Source: a virus
DNA length: 64,000 bases
Reading direction: 5' to 3' (one strand)
Virus record (IMG/VR): IMGVR_UViG_3300036939_000023
Location: 64,001-128,000 of that record
The notes under the pieces were generated by a model that saw only the letters and a list, made by a program, of their open reading frames with translations, did no database searches and was not told where the DNA came from. This document shows, one piece after another, positions 1,615-60,953 of this stretch (the stretch's first letter is position 1; every line of letters starts with the position of its first letter). Made by a program: the position numbers and the translations under genes.

Positions 1615-3825
1615 TTACCTTACAGGACAGCTACCAGTATCACAACTACTGTCTAACTTTTGTTCTTCATAATTAGATTCATAATTACTAACTAAGTTAA
1701 TTAACTCTTCTTCCTTTAATACTGGTAATTTACTTTTTAAGTTATTGTAATCATCTAATGTACAAGGTTCATAAGGCATATTAGGATACATAGCTTTACC
1801 TCCTTCTACTGGATCAAATTTAGGTAATAATGTTAATCCAATACAGTAATCCCAGTTATTATAAATCCATTTAGTTACTTCTTCCCATTCATTATCAGCC
1901 ACAGTAATAGTTACTGAACAGTTATGACCGTCTCTAACATAAGTAGTCATTGCTAACTTATAACGTTCTAGTTGATCAATAGAGGATTCATCAATAGCTC
2001 TAATTTCTGCATTTGTTTTAACTGGAAATGTAAACACCCAAGTATTACATTTTTCATCAAATAACTTATCACCTTGACTATTTTCAGGTACTACTGGAAT
2101 GTTTAAATCATATAAAGCTAATGCTAATGGATCTTGAGAACTAAATCTAATACGTCTGTAATAGCTCTCAGCGTAACTTCTATGAATACCACTAGATACA
2201 GTAGGTAGTTGACTTAAAGTACCTTCAGGTTTAAATAAACTAACTCTGGCACTACGTTCAATACCTAGTTCTTTATGATATTTATCAGCTTCTTGTCTTA
2301 CTATATCTGCACTAACTTTTAGAAAATCTTCTAACTGTTCTTTAGTCCATTTAAGTCTATCAACTGTATCCATAATTCCAGTCATAGATACACCTAACAA
2401 TCTTTGTGATTTTTGCACTTTATCCCATTCAGGATGCCACTGAGTAATAGTACTAATTCTACTTCCAGCTCTAGTAGCTAACTTTAGAGTATCAATCCAA
2501 CTATTCCAACAAAAACCATTATCTTCAGTAATGTGATAATAAGGATTTGTAGTAGTTAAATTACAAGTTTGTTTATTACGTAAACCCGTCTCGCCACAAG
2601 GATTTGTACCTTCAATTAAATCATCATATTTTCTAGCATTACCTATAATATAAAATCCAGGTTCACCATTATTTCTAATTCTATTTACTACTTGTTCTAA
2701 TTCTTCACAACTAGGTTTTTCATAAAACATCAAAGAATTATTAGACATTACTCTAATATCTTGATAAGGCTGCTTGTTTTCATCAGACCATAGATTATAC
2801 TTAGCTTCAATAAATTCCACATCTGTAGAGTCTCCTAGAGCTATCTCAGCAGTTCTTCTAACTCCACCAGATACTACACCTCTACCAATAATGTTAATAA
2901 TATCTAATGCTGCTAATGAATCAATTAACCCATTAGATCTAACTAAGATTTTATAAGTATCTTCTAGTACTTGCTGTAAGTTTTTATAACCACTACTTCT
3001 ACCACCAAATGTCTTAATTAGTTCGCCTTTAGGTCTAATGTTATCATAATTAAATTCAATTATCAACTCTTTATCAGATGTACATAAAGTAAGTAGTAAT
3101 CTTAATGCATTACACCATCCTTCTTTACTATCTCCAATTTTAATTATGTATCTATTAAAAATTTCTAAATCATTCTTTAGAGGATTGATATAATCACTAT
3201 CAGTTAGACAAATAGCATGTTTAAATAAGGTGCCAACTCCATTAGTTAAATTATTTAAATAGCCTTGAATAGTAGTATGTTCGTAATTACTATTGTTGTA
3301 ATTATAATCTTGATGTACTAATTGCTTATTTGCATAAAACTTAGGCAACTTGCTTATATGTTTTTGTTCTACTGAAAAACCAGTACCAGCACCAATCATT
3401 AACCAATAAAATATTTCACTAAAGCTACTGATAGTATCAATGTTGCAATAAGTACAATTCCAATTAGCACTACCATCTACTTCTGTTTGTTTACTTCCAC
3501 CAATCCATAATGTACGTCCTGCTGGAAATAGTCTTAAATTAAATACTGCATCAAATAACTCTTCAGCTTCTTTAATCTTATTTTCTTTAGTACTAACAGT
3601 ATCTAGTGATAATGAATACTCAACTACTCTAAGTACTGTTTCACACCATTTTTCTCTTCTATTTAACTCTTCAACAAATCTGCTATAAGTTCTTAGATAT
3701 ACTACTAAACCTAATTCACCAAAGTTAGGTTCTACATTAATATAATCTTTGTAAAAATTCCAACTAATGTATTGTGGCTTAACTAAATTAAAGTATTGCT
3801 GCTTACTTTCTAATGTAATTGACAT
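1615..3825 (-). CDS. nrdJ: adenosylcobalamin-dependent (class II) ribonucleoside-triphosphate reductase
   Basis: 736 aa, the size of the monomeric Lactobacillus-type RTPR (about 739 aa). It reduces ribonucleotides to deoxyribonucleotides using a 5'-deoxyadenosyl radical from coenzyme B12, so it needs no oxygen and no separate radical subunit. Visible landmarks: NWNCTYC near residue 125 (first redox Cys), NPCGE near 410 (thiyl-radical Cys), TCNL near 419 (second redox Cys), FKPEGTLSQLPTVSSGIH near 530, and the C-terminal SCDTGSCPVR, the swinging CxxxxC thiol pair. All key cysteines are present. It has its own TATAATTAT promoter 28 nt upstream, and the gene for a B12 adenosyltransferase follows. 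Confidence 0.95.
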   Translation of the reverse strand: MSITLESKQQYFNLVKPQYISWNFYKDYINVEPNFGELGLVVYLRTYSRFVEELNRREKWCETVLRVVEYSLSLDTVSTKENKIKEAEELFDAVFNLRLFPAGRTLWIGGSKQTEVDGSANWNCTYCNIDTISSFSEIFYWLMIGAGTGFSVEQKHISKLPKFYANKQLVHQDYNYNNSNYEHTTIQGYLNNLTNGVGTLFKHAICLTDSDYINPLKNDLEIFNRYIIKIGDSKEGWCNALRLLLTLCTSDKELIIEFNYDNIRPKGELIKTFGGRSSGYKNLQQVLEDTYKILVRSNGLIDSLAALDIINIIGRGVVSGGVRRTAEIALGDSTDVEFIEAKYNLWSDENKQPYQDIRVMSNNSLMFYEKPSCEELEQVVNRIRNNGEPGFYIIGNARKYDDLIEGTNPCGETGLRNKQTCNLTTTNPYYHITEDNGFCWNSWIDTLKLATRAGSRISTITQWHPEWDKVQKSQRLLGVSMTGIMDTVDRLKWTKEQLEDFLKVSADIVRQEADKYHKELGIERSARVSLFKPEGTLSQLPTVSSGIHRSYAESYYRRIRFSSQDPLALALYDLNIPVVPENSQGDKLFDEKCNTWVFTFPVKTNAEIRAIDESSIDQLERYKLAMTTYVRDGHNCSVTITVADNEWEEVTKWIYNNWDYCIGLTLLPKFDPVEGGKAMYPNMPYEPCTLDDYNNLKSKLPVLKEEELINLVSNYESNYEEQKLDSSCDTGSCPVR

Positions 3826-5219: not shown

Positions 5220-7175
5220 TTAAACTGTTACTTTAACTAATTTACCGTCTACTTTAACAACAAAGCTGTTATTAATAGTAGTACTAAATCCTACTCCACT
5301 TAATTGATTATCACTAAATGATACTTGTAGTTTACCTCCTAAGGCTTCAAATACTTTCTTGTGTACTAATAGTTCGTCTTTTAAGTACTCATTAAAGATA
5401 CCTCTAACTGGTTCTGTATTCTTACAATCATCAAGAAAGAAAAATACATGTTTATTACCAATCTGTTGTTGCCAGTAATTAGGACTGTAAGTAATCATAT
5501 TAACTTTGTGGAAAGTATTAGTGTTTAAGTTCCATAGTTTTTTACTGTTAATCTTACTATCTTTAGCTAACTTAATACCCTCTTTAGTAATAGTAAAAGT
5601 AGCTATAACTACATCTTCATTATGTCTAGGACTAGTATTGTAATTAAATTCAAATATCTCTCCTTCATATTCAATCTCTACATTAAATCCTACATCAATA
5701 GATTCTCTACTACAGAACTGATTAACTCCTACACCATAGGCGCCTTCAGGTAGTTTGCAGTTATGTGGGTAAATAATATTTTCTACTGGAGTTCTAGTAG
5801 TTGCATGTCCTCCGTTGGCATCTACATCTAATTGTCCCCCATTAGTACTTCTTTTATTACGATAATAGATATGTTGCTTATCAGGTTGCATTAAATGTAG
5901 ATCTAAATCATCATAGTTATACCATTCTAATGAAATACGTAATTTACCATCTACTTTACCTCCAGCAGCTTTAACCTTCTCTTTTAAACTATCTGTTAAG
6001 TTGTTTCTGTAACACCAACTGTAATTGTTACTCCATTTAAATAAGTTGGTATCGTCATCACTAGTTAATAAACTTACTAAATTACTTTCATGTTTGTTTT
6101 CTAGTAACAACTCAATATTACTACTATTAGGTAGTACTTCAGTAATAAAGTTATCTAAACTAACTTCTTTTAAGTTACTTAGCTTTCTTACATTAACTAT
6201 TGCATCTTTCTTTAATTCATCAAATATATCTAGTTGAGATTTAGTACGATTAACAAACAATACATTATCTACTGTAATATCGTCCTGTACTGCAAATCGT
6301 CTCTGTAGTGCCTGTGAGAGTCCTAGAGCTTCAATAGTCTTCTGAGCATCTTCTACCATCTTTGCAGTTACAAGAGGTTTAGGACGCTTATAGTTAGTAG
6401 GAGCAACTACTTTCTCAAACTTACGAATAGCAGTTTCTAAATCTACATCGTTACTTAAATCAATTAATAAAGTACCAATACTACTATTTCTAATTCTTAA
6501 TAATGCATTAGTAGTTACGGCATAACTCCAGCAATAGTTATCTTTTTGTTTACTAGTTAATTGTTCATAAGTTACTTTATGATCATCAAAGTTATTTAAT
6601 AATGCTTTGAACTCTTGTCCACGATATAAGTTATTCTCAGCAATTAAATCTAATACAGTTCTTACAGCTACAAAACTAAGTTCTTCTAATGATCGTTTAA
6701 ATACTGATTTGTTATCTCTGTACTCACTTTTCTTAGTTTCAATTATATCTTTGTTAGTTTTAAAATTATTAGGTAGTTGATAGTATAAGTGATTCCATTT
6801 AACTTCTTTATTTACATCCCAATTACTATCAGTACCTAACACATTAGTTTCATTAACAAATACATCTTTAATAGGTTTACTAAGTGCTAAGTTCTTTAAT
6901 GCATCTATTACCTTTTGGTACTTGTTATCACCTGCTTCAAAGTCCCAGTAAGTAACGGTTTCATAATTTTTAATTGCAACTAAATTACCATAATTTTTAA
7001 TAAACTGTTTGCAACTATTACAATTAAACTCTTGTCTAACATCTTCAGGAAAGTTGTTTAAATATGTATTCCATAATTCATCTTTATCTACATTAGTTAG
7101 ATACAAGTGAGTTTGGTCTTTAACAAAAAGCTTAAAGTTGGATTGAAATGATTGCTTAAATTCTAAGAAATTCAT
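5220..7175 (-). CDS. large protein with DUF2135/YfaP-like beta domain
   Basis: 651 aa. Residues about 400-540 read RISLEWYNYDDLDLHLMQP, then NGGQLDVDANGG, PVENIIYP and EGAYGVGVNQF. These are the strand and turn motifs of the DUF2135 fold, in which the aspartates probably bind metal. The N-terminal half is helical, with an FNCNSCKQFIKNYGN segment near 49 that hints at a Cys pair. I recall similar phage proteins next to the 124-aa neighbour family. Neither has an established role known to me. No signal peptide, so probably cytoplasmic. Confidence 0.7.
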   Translation of the reverse strand: MNFLEFKQSFQSNFKLFVKDQTHLYLTNVDKDELWNTYLNNFPEDVRQEFNCNSCKQFIKNYGNLVAIKNYETVTYWDFEAGDNKYQKVIDALKNLALSKPIKDVFVNETNVLGTDSNWDVNKEVKWNHLYYQLPNNFKTNKDIIETKKSEYRDNKSVFKRSLEELSFVAVRTVLDLIAENNLYRGQEFKALLNNFDDHKVTYEQLTSKQKDNYCWSYAVTTNALLRIRNSSIGTLLIDLSNDVDLETAIRKFEKVVAPTNYKRPKPLVTAKMVEDAQKTIEALGLSQALQRRFAVQDDITVDNVLFVNRTKSQLDIFDELKKDAIVNVRKLSNLKEVSLDNFITEVLPNSSNIELLLENKHESNLVSLLTSDDDTNLFKWSNNYSWCYRNNLTDSLKEKVKAAGGKVDGKLRISLEWYNYDDLDLHLMQPDKQHIYYRNKRSTNGGQLDVDANGGHATTRTPVENIIYPHNCKLPEGAYGVGVNQFCSRESIDVGFNVEIEYEGEIFEFNYNTSPRHNEDVVIATFTITKEGIKLAKDSKINSKKLWNLNTNTFHKVNMITYSPNYWQQQIGNKHVFFFLDDCKNTEPVRGIFNEYLKDELLVHKKVFEALGGKLQVSFSDNQLSGVGFSTTINNSFVVKVDGKLVKVTV

Positions 7176-21490: not shown

Positions 21491-21649
21491 TTAGTTACTT
21501 ATTAAACTATCTAAATAACTAATTTCAATACCACATTTGTTACAATACTTTACTGCTGCATCATACATCTGTTTAGTATGTACTTCATCATTGTTATTTC
21601 TGTAAATCTTAATTACTTGAATATACCAATTTAAGTTAGTTAATGACAT
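21491..21649 (-). CDS. small protein with CxxC, 52 aa
   Basis: MSLTNLNWYIQVIKIYRNNN ... VKYCNKCGIEISYLDS. A single CxxC pair and helical predictions; its start overlaps the 3' end of the RNA ligase gene by 14 nt. Unknown. Confidence 0.5.
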   Translation of the reverse strand: MSLTNLNWYIQVIKIYRNNNDEVHTKQMYDAAVKYCNKCGIEISYLDSLISN

Positions 21650-22604
21650 TTAACCACACACTTCTAATAGTGTTACTACATAACTTATTTAACTGCTTAT
21701 TTACATTCTTGCTAATCACTAACTGATTGTCTTTACTATAATCTTCAATAACATCTTTAATATATAATCCTAACACTTTACCAAAGTCATTACTAGTTAA
21801 CTCTCCTAACTTACTAGTTACTGAGTAAACTCTACTTTCTGTAATTAGTTCAGTTAGTTTAGTTAATACTATATTCTCTTCTTCTGTTAATGTAACTATT
21901 TTAGCTGGAGGTCTACCTTTGTTACTACTTTCTTTAAATTCTGGAGACTTGCATTTAATAATTACTCTATCTCCAGTTCTTAATGTTAAGTAGTTAACTG
22001 GTTTAATTACATAACCTTCTTCATTATTAACTTCTAATTTCTTATAATCATTATTTAGTAGATTAGGTATTAGTGAGTTAAAGGTTAAGTTGTTAGTGCA
22101 GTAAGTTAAAGAGTCTTGTAAATTACCTCTAAAATGTTCTGGCGCTAACTTTAGCTTAGTATAATAAGTTAGTACTTTTAAGACTTTATAGTTAATATAA
22201 TTAAGGTTAACTATATTATCTTCTATCCAAGTAACTAAGATATCAAAAACAATAAATTCTCTGCCACTACAGTATTTAACTCTATTGTTAATACCATCTC
22301 CAATTAACTCTCCATATACTTGAATTTGTTCTATCGGAGATTCATCATTAAATACTTTAAATAAATATCTAATATCTTGACTGTATTTATCTATTACAGG
22401 TTTACAATTAAAGAATGTACTATCAACTATTTGTGTTCTACTTGCTACTTGTACTTCATTACCATCACAAATAAAACTAAAGTTAGCTCCATCTAATTTA
22501 CTAGTTACTACAAATTCTTCATTACCATAACCATGTTCAATGATACTGTTAATGTACTTTTCTCTGTAACTGTTCTCAATACTGCTGTACTTAGTAAATT
22601 GCAT
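21636..22604 (-). CDS. RNA ligase, T4 Rnl2-like
   Basis: 322 aa. Nucleotidyltransferase motifs: SKLDGANFSF with the adenylated lysine near residue 35 (motif I), VASRTQ (Ia), VYGELIGDG (III), EFIVFDIL (IIIa), EGYVIKP (IV), RVIIKCKSPEFKES (V). This order and spacing is that of Rnl2-type ligases, which seal 3'-OH/5'-phosphate RNA nicks. It abuts the polynucleotide kinase gene (3-nt gap), with another ligase beyond, forming an RNA-repair cassette. The C-terminal third is helical as in Rnl2. Confidence 0.88.
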   Translation of the reverse strand: MQFTKYSSIENSYREKYINSIIEHGYGNEEFVVTSKLDGANFSFICDGNEVQVASRTQIVDSTFFNCKPVIDKYSQDIRYLFKVFNDESPIEQIQVYGELIGDGINNRVKYCSGREFIVFDILVTWIEDNIVNLNYINYKVLKVLTYYTKLKLAPEHFRGNLQDSLTYCTNNLTFNSLIPNLLNNDYKKLEVNNEEGYVIKPVNYLTLRTGDRVIIKCKSPEFKESSNKGRPPAKIVTLTEEENIVLTKLTELITESRVYSVTSKLGELTSNDFGKVLGLYIKDVIEDYSKDNQLVISKNVNKQLNKLCSNTIRSVWLNVIN

Positions 22605-22606
22605 AA

Positions 22607-23464
22607 TTAAAACTCGTATTCTCTACCTACTTTAAATACAAATAAACCTAACTTATTCCAACAGTTTCTAATTACACTAGGTCTGTCATCTAATACAAAT
22701 TTAACATTGTAGTAAGGTTCAATATGTTGATAATATAATTCTTCTTTAATTACATAATCTTTTCTACTATCTCCAGTAGCTCTCATTAGTAATAAACCAT
22801 TAGGAGCTTTATTGTTAATTAAGAATGTTCTAGTAGGTTCTTCATATTTCTGTTCTCTACCAGTTAAATAAATTATTGTGCAATCATTACTATATCTATT
22901 AAGTACATCTAATACTTCATTGCAAACATCATCTTTATCACAAGTAGAACAATCAAAGTAACTTCTACCATGATTGTTTAAAGCTAAAGTGCCATCTAAA
23001 TCTACTAAGATACAATTAGCTTTATTACTATCTATTTTTCTACTAACTGGTTTACAAACAAAGTCATAATACTGTTTTAAAATTACATCTTTACCTACAC
23101 TATTTAATCTCTGCAAATCTTGTTTAATACAAGTTTCTATAGATACATCTAAAAATGACTTAATCTCTACTGTTGCTTTATCTTTTACTAATTGTCTAAT
23201 ACGTTCTTCATGTTTAGGTGCTAAATTAGTGTCTGCAACTATAATATTTTTACTTTCTTCAATAGCTGCTAATATAATTGCATCTCTTATTTTAAGTACA
23301 AAATTTTCATTTCCTTTACTATATTTGCCATTATCTAACATTAGACGTAAATCATCTTTGCATACAATTTTAGTATTTGAATGTTGTTTAATGTATTCTT
23401 TAGCCCAATAACTTTTACCACTACCACTAAGTCCTATAGTTAAAATTACAGTTGGGTTGTCCAT
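22607..23464 (-). CDS. polynucleotide kinase/3'-phosphatase, T4 Pnk-like
   Basis: 285 aa. The N-terminal kinase P-loop IGLSGSGKS near residue 11 is followed by CKDDLRLML and an arginine-rich lid. The C-terminal phosphatase has the DxDGT motif ILVDLDGTLA near 148, TGREQKYE near 200 and VLDDRPSV near 260. It adds a phosphate to 5'-OH ends and removes 3'-phosphate or 2',3'-cyclic phosphate, the ends left by anticodon nucleases. It overlaps the second ligase gene by 19 nt, so the three genes are one unit. Confidence 0.93.
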   Translation of the reverse strand: MDNPTVILTIGLSGSGKSYWAKEYIKQHSNTKIVCKDDLRLMLDNGKYSKGNENFVLKIRDAIILAAIEESKNIIVADTNLAPKHEERIRQLVKDKATVEIKSFLDVSIETCIKQDLQRLNSVGKDVILKQYYDFVCKPVSRKIDSNKANCILVDLDGTLALNNHGRSYFDCSTCDKDDVCNEVLDVLNRYSNDCTIIYLTGREQKYEEPTRTFLINNKAPNGLLLMRATGDSRKDYVIKEELYYQHIEPYYNVKFVLDDRPSVIRNCWNKLGLFVFKVGREYEF

Positions 23465-24543
23465 TGATATAACTTCTTAATATCTAAATCTAATAAAAAC
23501 TGTTCTACTGTACTAACTCTATTTAAGTACAAATTAAATAAACAATTACTATAAAAATAGTCTTTAACACTTAATGCAAATTCTTTTCTATCTGTTATCT
23601 GTTTAGTTGTTATCCAAGTGTAGTTAATAGTTTCTACTAACTTGTTGTACTTATTATTTAAATTAACTATTTCTTCTTCTAGTTCATTAAAGTAAGTTAA
23701 TAGTTCTTCCGTTTCATTTCTTCTAATAACATCTAATAATGCATAAGGTGTATTAGTATTACTACGAATATGATGTAGAGCTACATATTCTTCACTCTTA
23801 ATCTTAATCCTGTTAAAGTTACTATCAACTACTACAAGTCCTTCTAACTGATTACCTTTAGTAGTACTTAAGTAATCTAGTATTTGTTGTATATTAGTTA
23901 ATTTATATTGTTTAACTATTTCATAATTAAGACAGCTAGCTAATCCAGCTAATGACATAACAGCAATTTCTACATAATCACTTAATCTTCTAGCACCTAA
24001 TAACACTAATTTAGGCTTTTTATATTCAACAACTACTTTATTGTAAATACTGCATAATTCAAATATAAAAGTATAATTATTATTACTTATAAAATGTGTA
24101 GGTAACTTATAATCTAACTGATTAAAGACTCTCCAAAACAATTGTTCAAAAGTAAAGTCATAACCATTAACTTCACCACCTGCATCTGCTTTACCACTAG
24201 TAGCTATAAGCCATTCTGAGCGGTAATAGAATAGTTGTACAAGACTTCCATCTAACTTCTCCTGAACAACTGCTGTAGACCAATCTATAACCTTCTCAGC
24301 TTCATTCTGTCCATAGTTATAAAATCGTTTAAATGGATAACTAATTACTTTCCAATCATCATCTTCATCTAAAATAATTCCTCTACATTCTTGTACTACT
24401 GGATGATAAGTAGGTGACTTAATTTGATCATATTTAAGTAATACTAAATTAGGATATTTGCTATGTCTATTATGTTTAATACCTAATTCAGTTTCTAACT
24501 GTTCTAGTGAATTATTACTTAAGTAGCTTTGTATTTCTAACAT
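23446..24543 (-). CDS. RNA ligase, T4 Rnl1-like
   Basis: 365 aa. QECRGIILDEDDDWKVI near 53 and YPFKRFYNYGQ near 72 are typical of the Rnl1 N-terminus. Motif I is VQEKLDGSLVQL near 95, motif III TFIFELCSIYNKVVV near 160, motif IV LEGLVVVD near 238, motif V RIKIKSEEYVALHH near 250. Rnl1-type enzymes re-join tRNA halves after Pnk has healed the ends. It is first in the repair cassette. Confidence 0.88.
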   Translation of the reverse strand: MLEIQSYLSNNSLEQLETELGIKHNRHSKYPNLVLLKYDQIKSPTYHPVVQECRGIILDEDDDWKVISYPFKRFYNYGQNEAEKVIDWSTAVVQEKLDGSLVQLFYYRSEWLIATSGKADAGGEVNGYDFTFEQLFWRVFNQLDYKLPTHFISNNNYTFIFELCSIYNKVVVEYKKPKLVLLGARRLSDYVEIAVMSLAGLASCLNYEIVKQYKLTNIQQILDYLSTTKGNQLEGLVVVDSNFNRIKIKSEEYVALHHIRSNTNTPYALLDVIRRNETEELLTYFNELEEEIVNLNNKYNKLVETINYTWITTKQITDRKEFALSVKDYFYSNCLFNLYLNRVSTVEQFLLDLDIKKLYQWTTQL

Positions 24544-31062: not shown

Positions 31063-31773
31063 TTAAATAGTTAGATTTAATGTAGATACTAAAGCTTGTT
31101 CCAAATAACAATATTGACTTGGTTCATACACAACCCTATTACCTATTTTAGTAGGTTCTACATTCTTACCAATTCTAAGAAATGAACTAGCTCTTTTTCT
31201 AAATGTATTAAGTTGTGTAGTATCTAAATTAATTCCTTTAGCTCTTAACCATTCATCAGCAGTTACATATCCAGCAGATTCATAGTTATCTTCCATCCCT
31301 GCTACAACCACTGAATAGCATCCTGGATTTGTTTCTCCACTCTTGAATAGCTTTTTTTGCTCACTAGCTAAGGCATCTAACTGTTTTTGTTGATTTACTA
31401 ACAATGTAGTAATAGTTTCTTGTAATTTGTCTAATTGGGATAAAGAACTATTAGGTGAAATGTATCCTCCTTCTTTTCTAATGCTAGGTAATACTTCTTT
31501 AGTAATCCATCTCTTAAAGTCTTTTGCTGATTCTAGTTTTGATCTCAAAATTAAAGAATATAAACCAGATTCGTTAATGAATACTAGATTTCTACTTGAT
31601 GCGGCAAAATACCGGGTGAGCTTATCTTCTTCTTCTACATGTGTTCTCACAGCATCAGAAGTATCTGAATAGCCTAAAATAGTTGCTACATCAGCTCCAG
31701 AAAACCATAATTCACTTTCAATCTCTAATGTTCTAACTTCTTTATCGTTATACTTAAATACTGCTAAATCCAT
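31063..31773 (-). CDS. Bro-N domain antirepressor-like protein
   Basis: 236 aa from ATG 31773; the earlier start is hydrophobic and improbable. The N-terminus LAVFKYNDKEVRTLEIESEL then WFSGADVATILGYSDTSDAV, HVEEEDKL, VFINESGLYSLILRSKLESA and FKRWITKEVLPSIRKEGGYI is a complete Bro-N/ANT DNA-binding domain. The C-terminal half has a coiled coil (LSQLDKLQETITTLLVNQQK) and a second domain with TADEWLRAKGINLDTTQLNT that resembles an ANT/KilA-C-like helical module. In phages these act as antirepressors or regulators. A 16-bp perfect palindrome lies 50 bp upstream of the start. Confidence 0.88.
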   Translation of the reverse strand: MDLAVFKYNDKEVRTLEIESELWFSGADVATILGYSDTSDAVRTHVEEEDKLTRYFAASSRNLVFINESGLYSLILRSKLESAKDFKRWITKEVLPSIRKEGGYISPNSSLSQLDKLQETITTLLVNQQKQLDALASEQKKLFKSGETNPGCYSVVVAGMEDNYESAGYVTADEWLRAKGINLDTTQLNTFRKRASSFLRIGKNVEPTKIGNRVVYEPSQYCYLEQALVSTLNLTI

Positions 31774-31822
31774 TGTTAGTAAAAATAAAAGATAAATATA
31801 CTGCATAAGTAAATATACCTAA

Positions 31823-35490: not shown

Positions 35491-35733
35491 CTAAAATGGT
35501 AGTTGTTGCCAAAAACTTTTATCTTCAGGTTTTAGTAAACCTACAATTGCATTTTTACCAATATAAGTATATTCTTTAGTACTATTTTTAAACTGTACTT
35601 TAATACCTACTTTCTTACCATCAGTAAATAATTTACAACTAACGATATTGTCATAAGTATTTAACTTACTAACAAGTTGTTTCCAAAGTATTAATGGATC
35701 AGTATTTTCTTTATTCACTAAATTAAATTGCAT
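35491..35733 (-). CDS. small protein, 80 aa, unknown
   Basis: MQFNLVNKENTDPLILWKQL then VSCKLFTDGKKVGIKVQFKN. It diverges from the plus-strand cyclase gene; 39 bp separate the two starts and must hold both promoters. Unknown. Confidence 0.6.
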   Translation of the reverse strand: MQFNLVNKENTDPLILWKQLVSKLNTYDNIVSCKLFTDGKKVGIKVQFKNSTKEYTYIGKNAIVGLLKPEDKSFWQQLPF

Positions 35734-35772
35734 AGTTATACTGTAACTGTTTAACTAAATGTACTACTGAAT

Positions 35773-36333
35773 ATGTTGATTTACAAATACTTAAGTGACA
35801 ATTTAATTGATATCTTTCATAGTTCAAATAACCCCCTAATATCTTCTACTAAATGTACTAAAACAATTATGTTTGTTGATAAACGTAATTTCACTAAAGA
35901 CACTCAATCACTATCATTAGAAAACTTACTAATACAACTCAACGAACATATTGAGAAAGTTAGTATAATTATCAAACCTTATGGAGGTAAGATTGATAAA
36001 TTTTTAGGTGATGGCATACTTATATTATTTGATAGTAGTAAGTTTGCAGTAGAAGCAGCCATTAAATTAGTACAACAAATACCTAATATTGGAGTAGGTA
36101 TTGATTGTGGTGAAGTACTCTATGGAACTATTGGTAATCCTAATAGTGAAAGATTGGATTGGAGTGTAATTGGAGTACCAGTAAATAGAGCTTTTAGAAT
36201 AGAAGGATTAACCTCTAAACTAAAAACTCCTATTCTTTATACTGAAACAGTTAGTCATAATTATCCTAGTAGCTATTTAGGATTATATGAACTAAAAGGT
36301 TTCAGTTTAACTAAGCTGTTCTATCCTCAATAA
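35773..36333 (+). CDS. class III adenylate/guanylate-type nucleotidyl cyclase
   Basis: 186 aa, a compact single CHD domain. KTIMFVDKRNFTK near residue 32 holds the first metal aspartate (family FADIRGFT). IIKPYGGKIDKFLGDGILIL near 68 holds the substrate lysine and second metal Asp. VGIDCGEVLYGTIG near 111 and DWSVIGVPVNRAFRIEGL near 136 hold the transition-state N and R. The base-selecting second residue is Ser (W-S-V-I-G), where class IIIb cyclases have Thr, so purine or pyrimidine preference is uncertain. It has no receptor, HAMP or membrane part. It is the only plus-strand gene in 57 kb, convergent with YopX. Confidence 0.85.
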   Translation: MLIYKYLSDNLIDIFHSSNNPLISSTKCTKTIMFVDKRNFTKDTQSLSLENLLIQLNEHIEKVSIIIKPYGGKIDKFLGDGILILFDSSKFAVEAAIKLVQQIPNIGVGIDCGEVLYGTIGNPNSERLDWSVIGVPVNRAFRIEGLTSKLKTPILYTETVSHNYPSSYLGLYELKGFSLTKLFYPQ

Positions 36334-36835
36334 GTTTAATTAGTTCTTCAGGTATAGTTAGCTTAGATACTTCATTAGATAATGAAATAAAATACTCATC
36401 AGCAATACTACCTACTATTTCTAGTTCTTTCCAATTAAATTCTTCAGTACCTTCATGAGGACAATAAAAATTAAGTTTCCATTCTACTGTGTAGTTATAC
36501 ATACCTAGTTCAGGTAGATAATCGTTTTCATCTTTGTACTTACCTTGTTGTATTTGTTTAATTCTAAAAGCACAATAATTAGAGCAATAAATAATTTCTC
36601 CTATTGCAGGAATTAAATTAGTTACTACACCAATTTCAGGGTCATTATATTCTTGAGCTGTAAATTTAACTACATCTCCTTCGTAAATTAATCTATTATT
36701 CTTATCAGTAACACCAAGACATTGTTGAACTATGTAATCTTGAAAAATTATAGGTGAGCTTAATACATAAGCTAAATCAGTATTGGTATATTCTTTTCCT
36801 ACATTATTCCAAATTCTAAATTGAAATCTGTTCAT
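36311..36835 (-). CDS. YopX family protein
   Basis: 174 aa. FQFRIWNNVGKEYTN near the start, QQCLGVTDKNNRLIYEGDVV near 38-57 and the late EIVGSIADEYFI are the YopX signature (K-F-R-x-W ... T-G-L-x-D-K-N-G-x-x-I-Y-E-G-D ... E-V-I-G-N). Found in many phages and prophages; function not established. Its 3' end overlaps the cyclase end (convergent) by 23 nt. Confidence 0.85.
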   Translation of the reverse strand: MNRFQFRIWNNVGKEYTNTDLAYVLSSPIIFQDYIVQQCLGVTDKNNRLIYEGDVVKFTAQEYNDPEIGVVTNLIPAIGEIIYCSNYCAFRIKQIQQGKYKDENDYLPELGMYNYTVEWKLNFYCPHEGTEEFNWKELEIVGSIADEYFISLSNEVSKLTIPEELIKLIEDRTA

Positions 36836-49184: not shown

Positions 49185-49534
49185 TACTTTTCTATCTTTC
49201 TTATCTCTGTAATAGTAACTAATGAATTAAAGTACCTAAAATACTTGTTAAATTGATACTTTTTAACTAAATTTTCACTATCATCTAACCAAATATCTGT
49301 TAAAAACTCATAAAAACTGTCATCAAAGCTATAAATTAGCTCATAATCACTAAAAATTGTACTTTTGTGTTGATTTAAATAACTACCTTTACTATCAGAT
49401 GATAAAAATTTAGTAAAATTAGTCTTTGTAATGTTGTTGTAACAGTATAAGTTAGTTTTTAATACTAAATATAACTGTTTTTTGTTGTGAATAGCTAAAT
49501 TTACAAACTCAGAATCTAACAAATATAGAATCAT
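49184..49534 (-). CDS. hypothetical protein, 116 aa
   Basis: MILYLLDSEFVNLAIHNKKQ, beta-rich (YLVLKTNLYCYNNITKTNFT), Tyr/Ser-rich. One base shared with the next gene. Unknown. Confidence 0.6.
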   Translation of the reverse strand: MILYLLDSEFVNLAIHNKKQLYLVLKTNLYCYNNITKTNFTKFLSSDSKGSYLNQHKSTIFSDYELIYSFDDSFYEFLTDIWLDDSENLVKKYQFNKYFRYFNSLVTITEIRKIEK

Positions 49535-49614
49535 AATACCTACTACTAGATTTGCACTAGTATCTCCTAAAATATGAAATTAGTTGCATTACTTATGCTA
49601 AGTAGGCTAGTTAA

Positions 49615-50253
49615 TTAAAGGTAATTATAACCCTTAATCTCTTGTAGCTCATTTATATTTACTTTTATTCTGTTATCTCTTTTATCTCTTACCTCAACTA
49701 CTACAGGAGTTATTATCTCAACCGTAGTCACTTGCATCTTTAATCCTCTTCTAACTAAAAAATAAGGCGCATTAATTTTTATCTCACTAACTGCTGTCTG
49801 ATATTCAAACTGCTGTACATTGTTTCTTAATTCCTTCTCTTGTTTATCTCTAAGTACTATTGGATAAGTCTTGTAAATGTAAGGCTTCATACGTTTATTA
49901 GGTCTTACATCAAACTTTTGTCCTATCACTTCTTTAACTTCTGGTATTTGTTTAATTACCCTTAAGAAGTCGTTAAAATCATTAACATCACATTGCTTTA
50001 TTTTCAGAAATATGTAATCAGAGTAAGGAAGTTGTAGTAACTGTTTATCTTCATTAAAGTTTCTTGGTAATCCTAATCCTTCAATAAAATATCTTAAGCT
50101 GAAATCTGCATTGATTTTATTGTTGCTTAGTAGATAGTTTTTGTTGGGATAATTATCTTTCTCTAAATACATTTTTATTAGATTCAGTATCTTTTCCTCT
50201 TGTTTGTACAGCACAGAAAAACAATACCAACCAGCCTTGATTGTATCAGACAT
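49615..50253 (-). CDS. NusG/RfaH-like transcription elongation factor (divergent)
   Basis: 212 aa from ATG 50253 (RBS TTGGAGTTAATT). GWYCFSVLYKQEEKILNLIK near residue 7 and YSDYIFLKIKQCDVNDFNDF then LRVIKQIPEVKEVIG resemble an NGN domain (W-Y-V ... G-Y-V-F-V-K ... G-V-x-x-F-V-G). The C-terminal RRGLKMQVTTVEIITPVVVE resembles a KOW motif with its hydrophobic strands. Phage NusG homologues act on RNA polymerase to suppress pausing or termination, plausible here given the many terminators. The match is by eye and needs a profile search. Confidence 0.5.
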   Translation of the reverse strand: MSDTIKAGWYCFSVLYKQEEKILNLIKMYLEKDNYPNKNYLLSNNKINADFSLRYFIEGLGLPRNFNEDKQLLQLPYSDYIFLKIKQCDVNDFNDFLRVIKQIPEVKEVIGQKFDVRPNKRMKPYIYKTYPIVLRDKQEKELRNNVQQFEYQTAVSEIKINAPYFLVRRGLKMQVTTVEIITPVVVEVRDKRDNRIKVNINELQEIKGYNYL

Positions 50254-54416: not shown

Positions 54417-55367
54417 TTAAGCTTGCGGCTGTTCTGTTGTCTCTGTTGTTTCTGTTTTTGGTTCAGTAATTACCCAATCTTTCTTTCTGAGATAAGCAAG
54501 TATCTGTGGCTTAGCTTTCAGGTTTTTAGAAGCATGTTCCCAAACAGTTACAGACTTCTCTTTGATTACAGACAGTAGAGAATCATAGTTTAAGTCTTTA
54601 AGTTCCTGTTCAGTAATCCAAGGTTCAGTAGGGATATCGTTGTTAATCTCAGTAGCTACGGCTTCTATTGTTGTAACTTCTGGATCAGTTGGCGGTACAT
54701 AAACAGTTGAGCTAATTTGTTGAAGTTCTCGTTTAACTGCTTTCTCAAGTGCTGGAATATTGACACCTAACATTTTTAATTCAACGTCAACAACCTCTCG
54801 TAATTTGTTCTCGAAATTAGAGATAATTTGATCCCTTACATCAGCTTCAAAGAAACCCCAACTGATATCCTTGATAACTTCAGTAACTAACTTGATCCAC
54901 TGATCTCCTGTGATAATTCTCAACTCTGGTGCTGAAATCAAGTTAACTGTTGATGCTTCACCTTTAGTCAAACTCATTGCTCTCATGCCTAAGCACAAAA
55001 TAAATAGTTGATTGTTGCCAAGCTTAGTTAACTGATTAATGAGTGAACGATAAAGGACTTTACTATCATCCATGAAAAACACTTTCAACAACTTCTCGAA
55101 TTTGGCATCCCCTGTTATAGCAAGCCCGGTTTCATTGCTCAATTGAATGTCAGAGATTTTTTTACCATCCTTTACTACCTGGTAAGTAAAGCCAGTATCC
55201 GTCTCAATGCTGAACGGGTATTTCTCAGCTAGTGCCATATCAGGAGTTGTTTTAATGTTCTTTGCACTCAAGTTGAAGGGGAAGATAGTACGTTTTTCTT
55301 GTAGTGCTAAAACATCCGTTGCGGCTAGTTCATCAATTTGAGGAAGGAGAAATTTGATATTAGACAT
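54417..55367 (-). CDS. hypothetical protein, 316 aa
   Basis: The N-terminal half is mixed, with TDTGFTYQVVKDGKKISDIQ and helices (VLYRSLINQLTKLGNNQLFI). The C-terminal 50 residues, LKDLNYDSLLSVIKEKSVTV then WEHASKNLKAKPQILAYLRK, look like a SAP/Rho-N-type three-helix fold. The leader ACTCATTAAGGATTC is shared with neighbours. Function unknown. Confidence 0.65.
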   Translation of the reverse strand: MSNIKFLLPQIDELAATDVLALQEKRTIFPFNLSAKNIKTTPDMALAEKYPFSIETDTGFTYQVVKDGKKISDIQLSNETGLAITGDAKFEKLLKVFFMDDSKVLYRSLINQLTKLGNNQLFILCLGMRAMSLTKGEASTVNLISAPELRIITGDQWIKLVTEVIKDISWGFFEADVRDQIISNFENKLREVVDVELKMLGVNIPALEKAVKRELQQISSTVYVPPTDPEVTTIEAVATEINNDIPTEPWITEQELKDLNYDSLLSVIKEKSVTVWEHASKNLKAKPQILAYLRKKDWVITEPKTETTETTEQPQA

Positions 55368-55453: not shown

Positions 55454-55729
55454 TTAGATGTCGTAGTCTTCTAGAATCTGTTGATATTCTTCCTTGGAAA
55501 TGACTATCCAGTTAACTTCACCTAATGGCCTAGTTTCACCCGTGATCAAGTTGGTTGCTATTGTTTCTTTGTCCCCCTGACCATACTTATTGTTTAATAA
55601 CCTTTGCTGATTATCCCAAGTCCACTCAGGGGATATGTACCTATAAAAATGAAAACAATCAAAGTAGTGATGGTATTTAACTAAGTTCCCTTTCGGCGCA
55701 TTAATGTGTTTGTGTCCTAGTAGCTTCAT
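55454..55729 (-). CDS. hypothetical protein, 91 aa
   Basis: Start ATG 55729 (MKLLGHKHINAPKGNLVKYH) after ACTCATTAAGGATTGAATCA, the block's shared leader; the upstream frame begins with TTG. Contains KYHHYFDCFHFYRYISPEWT, rich in His and aromatic residues. Unknown. Confidence 0.6.
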   Translation of the reverse strand: MKLLGHKHINAPKGNLVKYHHYFDCFHFYRYISPEWTWDNQQRLLNNKYGQGDKETIATNLITGETRPLGEVNWIVISKEEYQQILEDYDI

Positions 55730-55797
55730 TGATTCAATCCTTAATGAGTGTTTGAGGTAATCCAGATTTTTAAGGTTCAACTGCCAACCTAATTTAA

Positions 55798-56472
55798 TTA
55801 ACGACTCTCTAGTTCAGTTCTTATGGCTTGCAGTTGATTAATTAAGTAAGTGATGTCATTGAGATTCATTTGGTCTAAGGGAAGTTCTATTTTTTGCCTA
55901 CCGCCTAATCGTTTATCTTCACCGTTAATCCTTAAGACTTCTCTATCTAGTGGATCTTTATCTAGCTTGGCGGTTAGTATTGACTCTGGCATTTCTTTAA
56001 CTACTGTCTCTTCTGGTGGATAAGGATTGCCTAAGAAGCAAATCTCCTCTAATTCCTTGAGCTTGACGTATTTCTGACTACGAATAATCTTAACGGTGTT
56101 AACCTTGCCGCTATTAGTTCGGATTGGCTCTACTAAATAATAACCACCTTCAAGTTTTAGGTAGACTTCACAATCTTCTTTAGGATAAGTATCTTGACCC
56201 CAGACAAATTTAGTACCAAGGGGGAGATATTCTTTAGTATCCTCATCTACTTGAGCTAGGCTTGGTTCCTCTATCTGCTGTTCTTGAATAAATGCTTCTA
56301 CCATTGCGAGTGACTTACGGAAAGCAAATAACCTGCCTTTAGTTTCTGCTATCTCTCGACTACAGTTAGTAGTATATTTATCAGCTTCTAACTTGTTAAG
56401 CTTATTCTCTTCTTTGAGAATTGTAGCCTTAAGCTCTTTAACTAACTCGTCAGTTGATGGGATGAAGTACAT
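55798..56472 (-). CDS. hypothetical protein, 224 aa
   Basis: An N-terminal coiled coil (LKATILKEENKLNKLEADKY) is followed by a beta domain (EVYLKLEGGYYLVEPIRTNS) and a helical C-terminus. Leader ACTCATTAGGTTAAATC. No family recognised. Confidence 0.6.
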   Translation of the reverse strand: MYFIPSTDELVKELKATILKEENKLNKLEADKYTTNCSREIAETKGRLFAFRKSLAMVEAFIQEQQIEEPSLAQVDEDTKEYLPLGTKFVWGQDTYPKEDCEVYLKLEGGYYLVEPIRTNSGKVNTVKIIRSQKYVKLKELEEICFLGNPYPPEETVVKEMPESILTAKLDKDPLDREVLRINGEDKRLGGRQKIELPLDQMNLNDITYLINQLQAIRTELESR

Positions 56473-59629: not shown

Positions 59630-59881
59630 TGTGCTAATAACTTGTTTATCAATTTGTAATTCAATATTATCTTTACTAACTATACTACTACTACTAATTG
59701 TTATTTCCTTATCTACTGCTAATTCCATTAACTTATTAACAGTTACTTTTAATGCATCTTCACTGTTTAACTTAAGAATTACTGGTTCTTCAATAACTTC
59801 TACTACATTAACAGTAATACCATTATCTTCTAACTTACTAATTAATTCTTCCATTGCATTAACTACTTTCTTCTTATTCAT
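59627..59881 (-). CDS. small protein, 84 aa
   Basis: A helical start MNKKKVVNAMEELISKLEDN then strands VNVVEVIEEPVILKLNSEDA and ITISSSSIVSKDNIELQIDK. A gap of one base to the tail-like gene. Could be a cofactor or chaperone of that protein; unknown. Confidence 0.6.
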   Translation of the reverse strand: MNKKKVVNAMEELISKLEDNGITVNVVEVIEEPVILKLNSEDALKVTVNKLMELAVDKEITISSSSIVSKDNIELQIDKQVIST

Positions 59882-59882
59882 T

Positions 59883-60953
59883 TTATTTTAAATAAACCTT
59901 ACTAACTATTCTAGTACCTACACTTAAATTACTAACATTTAATCTAATAAACTTACTACTACAATTACTATTAATAACTACTACACCATTAGCTGTAACT
60001 GTTACTACATTATCTCTTGTACTACCTACTAAATTAGTATAAGTAATTGGTAATAAGTACCAAGTAGTTTCATCTAAACTTCCCATTAAACTTAAATTAA
60101 CAGTACCACTTAAATTAGTAACGTTAGCTACATAACTAATAGTATTGTAAGTAATAGTATCTAATGTACTAGTATTAGTATTAGTTGTTATTACATTTTC
60201 AGTAACTACTTTAGGTACAACTCTATTTACATCATTAACATTAAGTATAATAGTGTTAAGGTCATTTAAGTTACCTACGTTAAAACTAGTATTCTTAATT
60301 GTTAATGCATTAAATAAACTACTTAAGTTATTAACATCTATAGCGTTAGTAACTTTAACATTAATTGGTATAGTACTATCTAACTTAGTATTAAGTGTGC
60401 TACTAGTTATTTCACTAAGGTTGTTAATTTTAGTACTGTTATTTAAATTAGTAACTTCTACTTTATTATCAGCTAATTTAACAGTAAGTATACTATTTAC
60501 TAAATCTAATAGGTTATTAACTTTAAATTCTTTATTAGTAATAGTTGGTGTTAATAGTTTATTTACTGTTACATCATCTAATTTAGTAGTTAATAATATA
60601 TCTCTTAATGTACTTAAGTTATCTACTAATATCTTATTGTCTTTTAAGTTAACGTTAATATCATTAGTAACTTTAGTGTTAAGTGTATTAGTAATTAATT
60701 CATTAAGATTACTAATATTGACAGTATTACTTAATGTATTTAATTTAGTTGCAATAGTAGTTAATACAGTAGTGTAATCTGGTAACTCAGTAATATTTGT
60801 ATTAGTATAATTAGTTAGTGTAATTAAGTACCACAGTGTAACTATTACTTTAGCTTCTTGATTTAATGTAAAGAAAGTATCTTCATCTATATTTGTTAGA
60901 TCAAATGTGTTTAAGTAATGTTGTAATAACTTAGTAGTATCTATATTGTTCAT
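59883..60953 (-). CDS. tail/decoration-like protein with repeated NL-rich units
   Basis: 356 aa. The N-terminal 40 residues are mixed. Residues about 60-260 are low-complexity, built from loose repeats of the form V-x-N-L-x-x-L-x-x-x-x-L-x-x-K (examples NLNELITNTLNTKV, NLSTLRDILLTTKL, NNLLDLVNSILTVK, NNLSEITSSTLNTK, NLNDLNTIILN). The C-terminal 90 residues (VANVTNLSGTVNLSLMGSLD, TWYLLPITY, VVVINSNCSSKFIRLNVSNL) form a compact beta-sandwich like the end domains of phage adhesins. Probably a virion fibre or decoration protein. No signal peptide. Confidence 0.6.
   Translation of the reverse strand: MNNIDTTKLLQHYLNTFDLTNIDEDTFFTLNQEAKVIVTLWYLITLTNYTNTNITELPDYTTVLTTIATKLNTLSNTVNISNLNELITNTLNTKVTNDINVNLKDNKILVDNLSTLRDILLTTKLDDVTVNKLLTPTITNKEFKVNNLLDLVNSILTVKLADNKVEVTNLNNSTKINNLSEITSSTLNTKLDSTIPINVKVTNAIDVNNLSSLFNALTIKNTSFNVGNLNDLNTIILNVNDVNRVVPKVVTENVITTNTNTSTLDTITYNTISYVANVTNLSGTVNLSLMGSLDETTWYLLPITYTNLVGSTRDNVVTVTANGVVVINSNCSSKFIRLNVSNLSVGTRIVSKVYLK

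Follow-up and report, generated by a model that had tools for sequence, protein, structure and literature searches.

A phage-borne class III nucleotidyl cyclase without a sensor domain: a candidate source of cAMP in the infected cell

What a phage could do with a solitary nucleotidyl cyclase is the question raised by a small gene of an IMG/VR virus record. The window analyzed here is a stretch of 64,000 nucleotides (bases 64001-128000 of the 148,569-base, 148.6-kb record), and a sequence-only reading of it had singled out one open reading frame as a minimal class III cyclase domain of phage origin. The coordinates and strand assigned to this frame, which starts with an ATG at 35773, ends with a stop at 36333 and codes for a product of 186 aa (P0001), proved to be exact (Table 1). 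The frame showed no break. Its G+C content by codon position (0.385/0.321/0.155) matches the mean of the phage (0.385/0.307/0.158), and no other frame of the locus scored as coding; the ORF is therefore not due to chance. Judged from this composition, the gene would have been resident long enough to adapt to that of the phage, and since the adaptation is complete it can be argued that the gene has been kept.

Table 1. Features of the cyclase gene and its surroundings (positions in the window).
Feature	Position	Strand	Basis
Stand-alone class III nucleotidyl cyclase gene (P0001)	35773..36333	+	ORF, Pfam, PDB search, AlphaFold model, composition
Codons 9-16, helix (H9-16) at the position of the cyclase transducer element	35797..35820	+	DSSP of model
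Codon 36, Asp, first metal ligand; codon 37 is Lys	35878..35880 (codon 36)	+	Alignment
Codon 76, Lys, adenine-contacting, Cya2 E488 position	35998..36000	+	Alignment
Codon 80, Asp, second metal ligand	36010..36012	+	Alignment
Codons 86-107, shortened alpha3 segment	36028..36093	+	Alignment; model helix 89-102
Codon 131, Ser, second base-contact position	36163..36165	+	Alignment
Codons 138-142, N-R-A-F-R: transition-state Asn138 and Arg142, aromatic Phe141 beside Arg	36184..36198	+	Alignment
Divergent intergenic gap, 39 nt, with TATACT at 35737-35742	35734..35772	+	Candidate -10 element
Divergent neighbor, 80 aa, function not assigned	35491..35733	-	ORF, Pfam search
Convergent neighbor, YopX-like, 174 aa; 3' end overlaps cyclase gene by 23 nt	36311..36835	-	ORF, similarity to YopX

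The assignment of P0001 to the class III cyclases was borne out by Pfam, by a PDB sequence search and by the predicted structure, all of which agreed. The match to PF00211 (Guanylate_cyc) lies just above the cut-off (22.8 bits against 21.9; E 7.9e-5), and the top match in the PDB sequence search was Cya2 of Synechocystis (2w01; E 3.1e-15). An AlphaFold2 model was obtained with a mean pLDDT of 92.9 and a pTM of 0.88; its input alignment consisted of ordinary cyclases, and it supports the fold and proves no activity. The listed top 50 PDB structure matches of this model were all class III cyclases, with OaPAC and bPAC first (best E value 1e-15; highest TM, over the query, 0.88). Structure prediction had been suggested as a check, and in the model D36, the D80 hairpin and the helix carrying N138 and R142 lie in their canonical elements. 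The catalytic residues named from the sequence are all present, namely D36 and D80 for the metals, K76 for the base, and N138 and R142 for the transition state. In alignments of 73-76 relatives K76, D80, N138, and R142 were invariant and D36 nearly so; P0001 thus combines the catalytic fold of class III with the two metal aspartates and the transition-state Asn/Arg pair in invariant or nearly invariant columns. A search of the same phage record for a second cyclase found none.

The term minimal, used in the sequence-only reading, merely hinted at the real peculiarity of this protein, which is the absence of a sensor domain: P0001 consists of the catalytic domain alone, with neither a sensor nor a transmembrane part. 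Phage cyclases are not new, and P0001 is a sensorless variant of them. An IMG/VR scan confirmed at least 532 viral contigs with a cyclase, some of the short ones being possibly bacterial. Among the best-scoring matches listed, the 108 viral relatives with complete frames have 415-721 aa and the 101 cellular ones all have at least 326 aa, and shorter cyclases may exist elsewhere; BFVD contains a 287-aa phage protein with a class III cyclase fold. The helix formed by codons 9-16 of P0001 would occupy the place of the transducer element, which in relatives joins the sensor and the catalytic domain.

Among known cyclases, Cya2 has the same fold as P0001, and its E488K variant, which makes cAMP, has the same Lys, whereas wild type Cya2 has Glu at this position, makes cGMP and carries a CHASE2 sensor (PMC5995499). 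OaPAC and bPAC, the best structural matches to the catalytic domain, differ by their light-sensing domain and, in OaPAC, by Thr at the second base position. The cyclases of pelagiphages (HTVC008M and its IMG/VR relatives) share with P0001 the catalytic D, D, K, S, N, R set at about 30% identity. That of HTVC008M (AGE60353) is annotated as an adenylate/guanylyl cyclase of about 611 aa and adjoins curli genes, and the cyclase in the curli cluster of pelagiphages has been reported among their auxiliary genes (PMC9599517). Most of these proteins are long, with about 540-640 aa and an extensive N-terminal part, and in pelagiphages their genes adjoin those for curli (T8SS), in contrast to P0001, which has 186 aa and no such cluster, its neighbors being YopX-like or of no assigned function. 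A search of the open-licence literature yielded no paper dealing with what a phage adenylyl cyclase does.

P0001 also diverges within the catalytic domain. The stretch from F86 to G107 (alpha3) comprises 21 residues, compared with 34-43 in nearly all viral relatives, and its helix 89-102 was modeled with high confidence. Lys37, next to the metal ligand Asp36, stands at a position that is hydrophobic (Ile, Leu or Val) in all 190 relatives aligned, and Val135 stands where Asp is common. With Lys37 and the shortened alpha3, full activity of the enzyme is not certain. In a tree meant to identify the donor, the branch leading to P0001 is 17 times the median (2.06 vs. 0.12) and was placed beside an alphaproteobacterial group with a support of 0.907, a position that a long-branch artefact may explain; raw identities to cyanobacterial cyclases reach 43%, over shorter stretches. 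A protein-pattern search of IMG/VR found no close relatives of P0001, of the terminase and the DNA polymerase of the phage, or of the two neighbors of the cyclase gene. The features described above, together with the lost sensor, would suit a dead or nearly dead domain, either retained for a binding role (it might, for instance, pair with host cyclases as a dominant negative) or departing as a relic. A dead domain would, however, be expected to lose some of its catalytic positions, and in P0001 all six of them (D36, K76, D80, S131, N138, and R142) are intact or conservatively changed; the unbroken frame, a coding bias normal for the phage and the confident fold also argue against this explanation, which we regard as unlikely. 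P0001 rather appears to be a fast-evolving, trimmed cyclase in which the catalytic residues have been kept.

It had been claimed that the nucleotide used by this cyclase cannot be read from the sequence. This was only partly upheld: the residue at the first base position favors ATP, while some use of GTP is possible via Phe141. A single change, E488K, converts Cya2 into an adenylyl cyclase (PMC5995499), and Lys at this position marks ATP enzymes in general (PMC4215837). Since Lys76 of P0001 sits at the E488 position and this replacement alone is sufficient in Cya2, ATP would be a likelier substrate than GTP, with GTP as a side possibility. The first base position of P0001 thus has the residue of adenylyl specificity, and the surrounding motif, KFLGDG, is of the ordinary adenylyl cyclase type. 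At the second base position adenylyl cyclases are expected to have Asp or Thr, and P0001 has Ser131, as is usual in its viral relatives, the substrates of which are unmeasured. The presence of Ser where Thr was expected had been pointed out before, and Ser131 was confirmed. Among phage cyclases it is no oddity, however, as 123 of the 151 viral relatives have Ser (loci L013-L092 and L217-L286, IMG/VR), a count in which many members come from related marine groups and are not independent events, and for which the search patterns required Lys. Cellular relatives, on the contrary, have Thr in 79 of 80 cases, as do 38 of 39 relatives in a cyanobacterial set, and this difference possibly means that substrate or activity is tuned in a way specific to phages.

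Phe141 bears on the alternative of an active cyclase that is relaxed or leans toward GTP, producing cGMP besides cAMP. It lies beside the transition-state Arg, where Cya2 has a Tyr that raised guanylyl, not adenylyl, cyclase activity (PMC4215837), and this position is aromatic in just 3 of 190 relatives; in addition, the second base position can be Ser or Thr in guanylyl cyclases too (PMC4215837). Against this, the main purine-choosing position is occupied by Lys76 and not by Glu, and we consider such an enzyme quite unlikely. Lys by itself is compatible with pyrimidine use too, since the UTP-using AnPycC seems to carry Lys (K104) at the position equivalent to K76 (PMC11224242).

This shared Lys is also one of the points in favor of an interference with Pycsar-like defence, as had been proposed from the sequence, in which the cyclic nucleotide made by P0001 would act as a competitor or decoy and occupy the CNBD effectors. 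The Apyc1 nucleases of phages attack such signals (PMC9117128), the PycC models of PADLOC match P0001, and PycC has in common with it the class III fold and the metal aspartates. The model scores were, however, weak and unspecific: P0001 reached 35 bits, whereas six other class III cyclase domains scored 73-101 bits on the same models. Unlike PycC, P0001 has an ordinary KxxGD motif and no adjacent CNBD effector; no PF00027 protein (the PycTM/PycTIR type of effector) occurs in the record, and no anti-defence gene was recognized among the neighbors. P0001 was thus rejected as a Pycsar PycC, no specific support for the Pycsar link was obtained, and the decoy explanation is very unlikely.

The surroundings of the gene were found as previously described, with a divergent gene upstream and a convergent one downstream (Table 1). 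The 80-aa upstream neighbor was tried as a cytochrome b6f subunit (Tsr0524-like) and rejected, its Pfam score of 19 bits being below the cut-off of 25. The description of the cyclase gene as the only plus-strand gene in 57 kb is true for positions 1-58685 of the window. Farther left, however, before the window begins, this minus-strand arm is interrupted by four or more further solitary genes on the plus strand (49505-49993, 54557-55015, 55576-56199, and 59662-60279 of the record). The lone genes of the arm include one for a GIY-YIG-like T5orf172 protein and one for an Ig-like protein. Isolated plus-strand genes are therefore a habit of this phage. The further claim that the cyclase gene has its own control found some encouragement in the TATACT of the divergent gap, which on the other hand lacks the TATAATTA motif. 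This motif is enriched upstream of the phage genes (25 of 116, compared with 3.4 expected) and is likely to be a -10 element of the phage. Sigma-70-like sites near the cyclase gene were fewer than in shuffled sequences. A promoter of its own is a possibility for this gene.

The gene content of the record, with a terminase large subunit, a major head protein, a portal, a tail fibre, a DNA polymerase, a ribonucleotide reductase and RNA ligases, identifies the virus as a tailed phage. An assembly or binning artefact, in which a bacterial gene would lie on a contig mislabeled as viral, has a precedent in one of the records matched here: L003 (CAKLQF020000009.1), labeled as Acinetobacter phage MD-2021a, holds mfd, iscS, iscU, and hscA and thus resembles bacterial chromosome; the cyclase encoded on it therefore cannot serve as evidence for a phage gene. 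For P0001 this explanation can be practically discounted, as the terminase, major head protein, portal, DNA polymerase and tail genes are in the same record and the cyclase gene is embedded among phage genes of identical composition. A megablast search against known phages gave no match. The sole near relative found in the protein-pattern search was a 6.1-kb contig (L216, IMGVR_UViG_3300022832_000056) with a major head protein 81% identical. A distant relationship to Pseudanabaena phage Pam2, at 26-37% identity, was seen for the terminase, head protein, DNA polymerase and portal and for one protein resembling an annotated sigma factor; this relatedness indicates, without proving it, that the host is probably cyanobacterial.

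These data are best accommodated if P0001 is a constitutive adenylyl cyclase whose product acts on cAMP receptors of the host, a reading to which we assign a probability of roughly 0.6. P0001 would pair with itself, and the active sites at the dimer interface would be formed by Asp36/Asp80, Lys76/Ser131, and Asn138/Arg142. The homodimer would convert ATP into 3',5'-cAMP inside the infected cell, and its output would be set by the level of expression alone, with no sensor input. Since a search of the 148.6-kb record for a cyclic-nucleotide-binding protein (PF00027) found none, the receptor would have to be that of the host. Pilus formation and motility of Synechocystis are regulated by cAMP together with Sycrp1 and Sycrp2, its CRP proteins (PMC7690835); if the host is cyanobacterial, Sycrp-type control would be the natural target, and the cAMP made by the phage might act on CRP-type receptors such as Sycrp1. 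Host transcription would then shift during infection, for example that of pili, surface or motility genes, presumably to the benefit of the phage. More tentatively, and with somewhat less than even odds, the phage may have acquired from a cellular cyclase its catalytic core alone and, by generating the signal without regulation, take control of cAMP signaling in the host during infection; the literature searched contained no experiment on such a strategy. If this is true, a phage that makes a cyclic nucleotide would be the mirror image of those that destroy host cyclic-nucleotide signals by means of Acb1 or Apyc1 (PMC9117128). The long N-terminal parts of other phage cyclases complicate testing, and the 186-aa form offers a simple one-gene case in which an increase of host cAMP by phage cyclases, and any gain to the phage from it, could be looked for.

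Several other genes of the window, all on the minus strand, deserve mention. The product of 31063-31806 belongs to the anti-repressor Ant family (phrog_130, E 2e-45), which hints at a lysis-lysogeny type of regulation in a large phage. The ribonucleotide reductase (1615-3825) has its nearest phage relatives, at about 38% identity, in Thermus phages P23-45 and P74-26. Two genes at a short distance from each other code for RNA ligases (21636-22604 and 23446-24543), one of the T4 Rnl2 type and one of the RNA ligase/tail-fibre attachment family (phrog_562). Finally, a 651-aa protein of no assigned function (5220-7175, phrog_1735) has counterparts, 42-44% identical, in Cronobacter, Clostridioides and other phages, which is a broad distribution for an uncharacterized protein.
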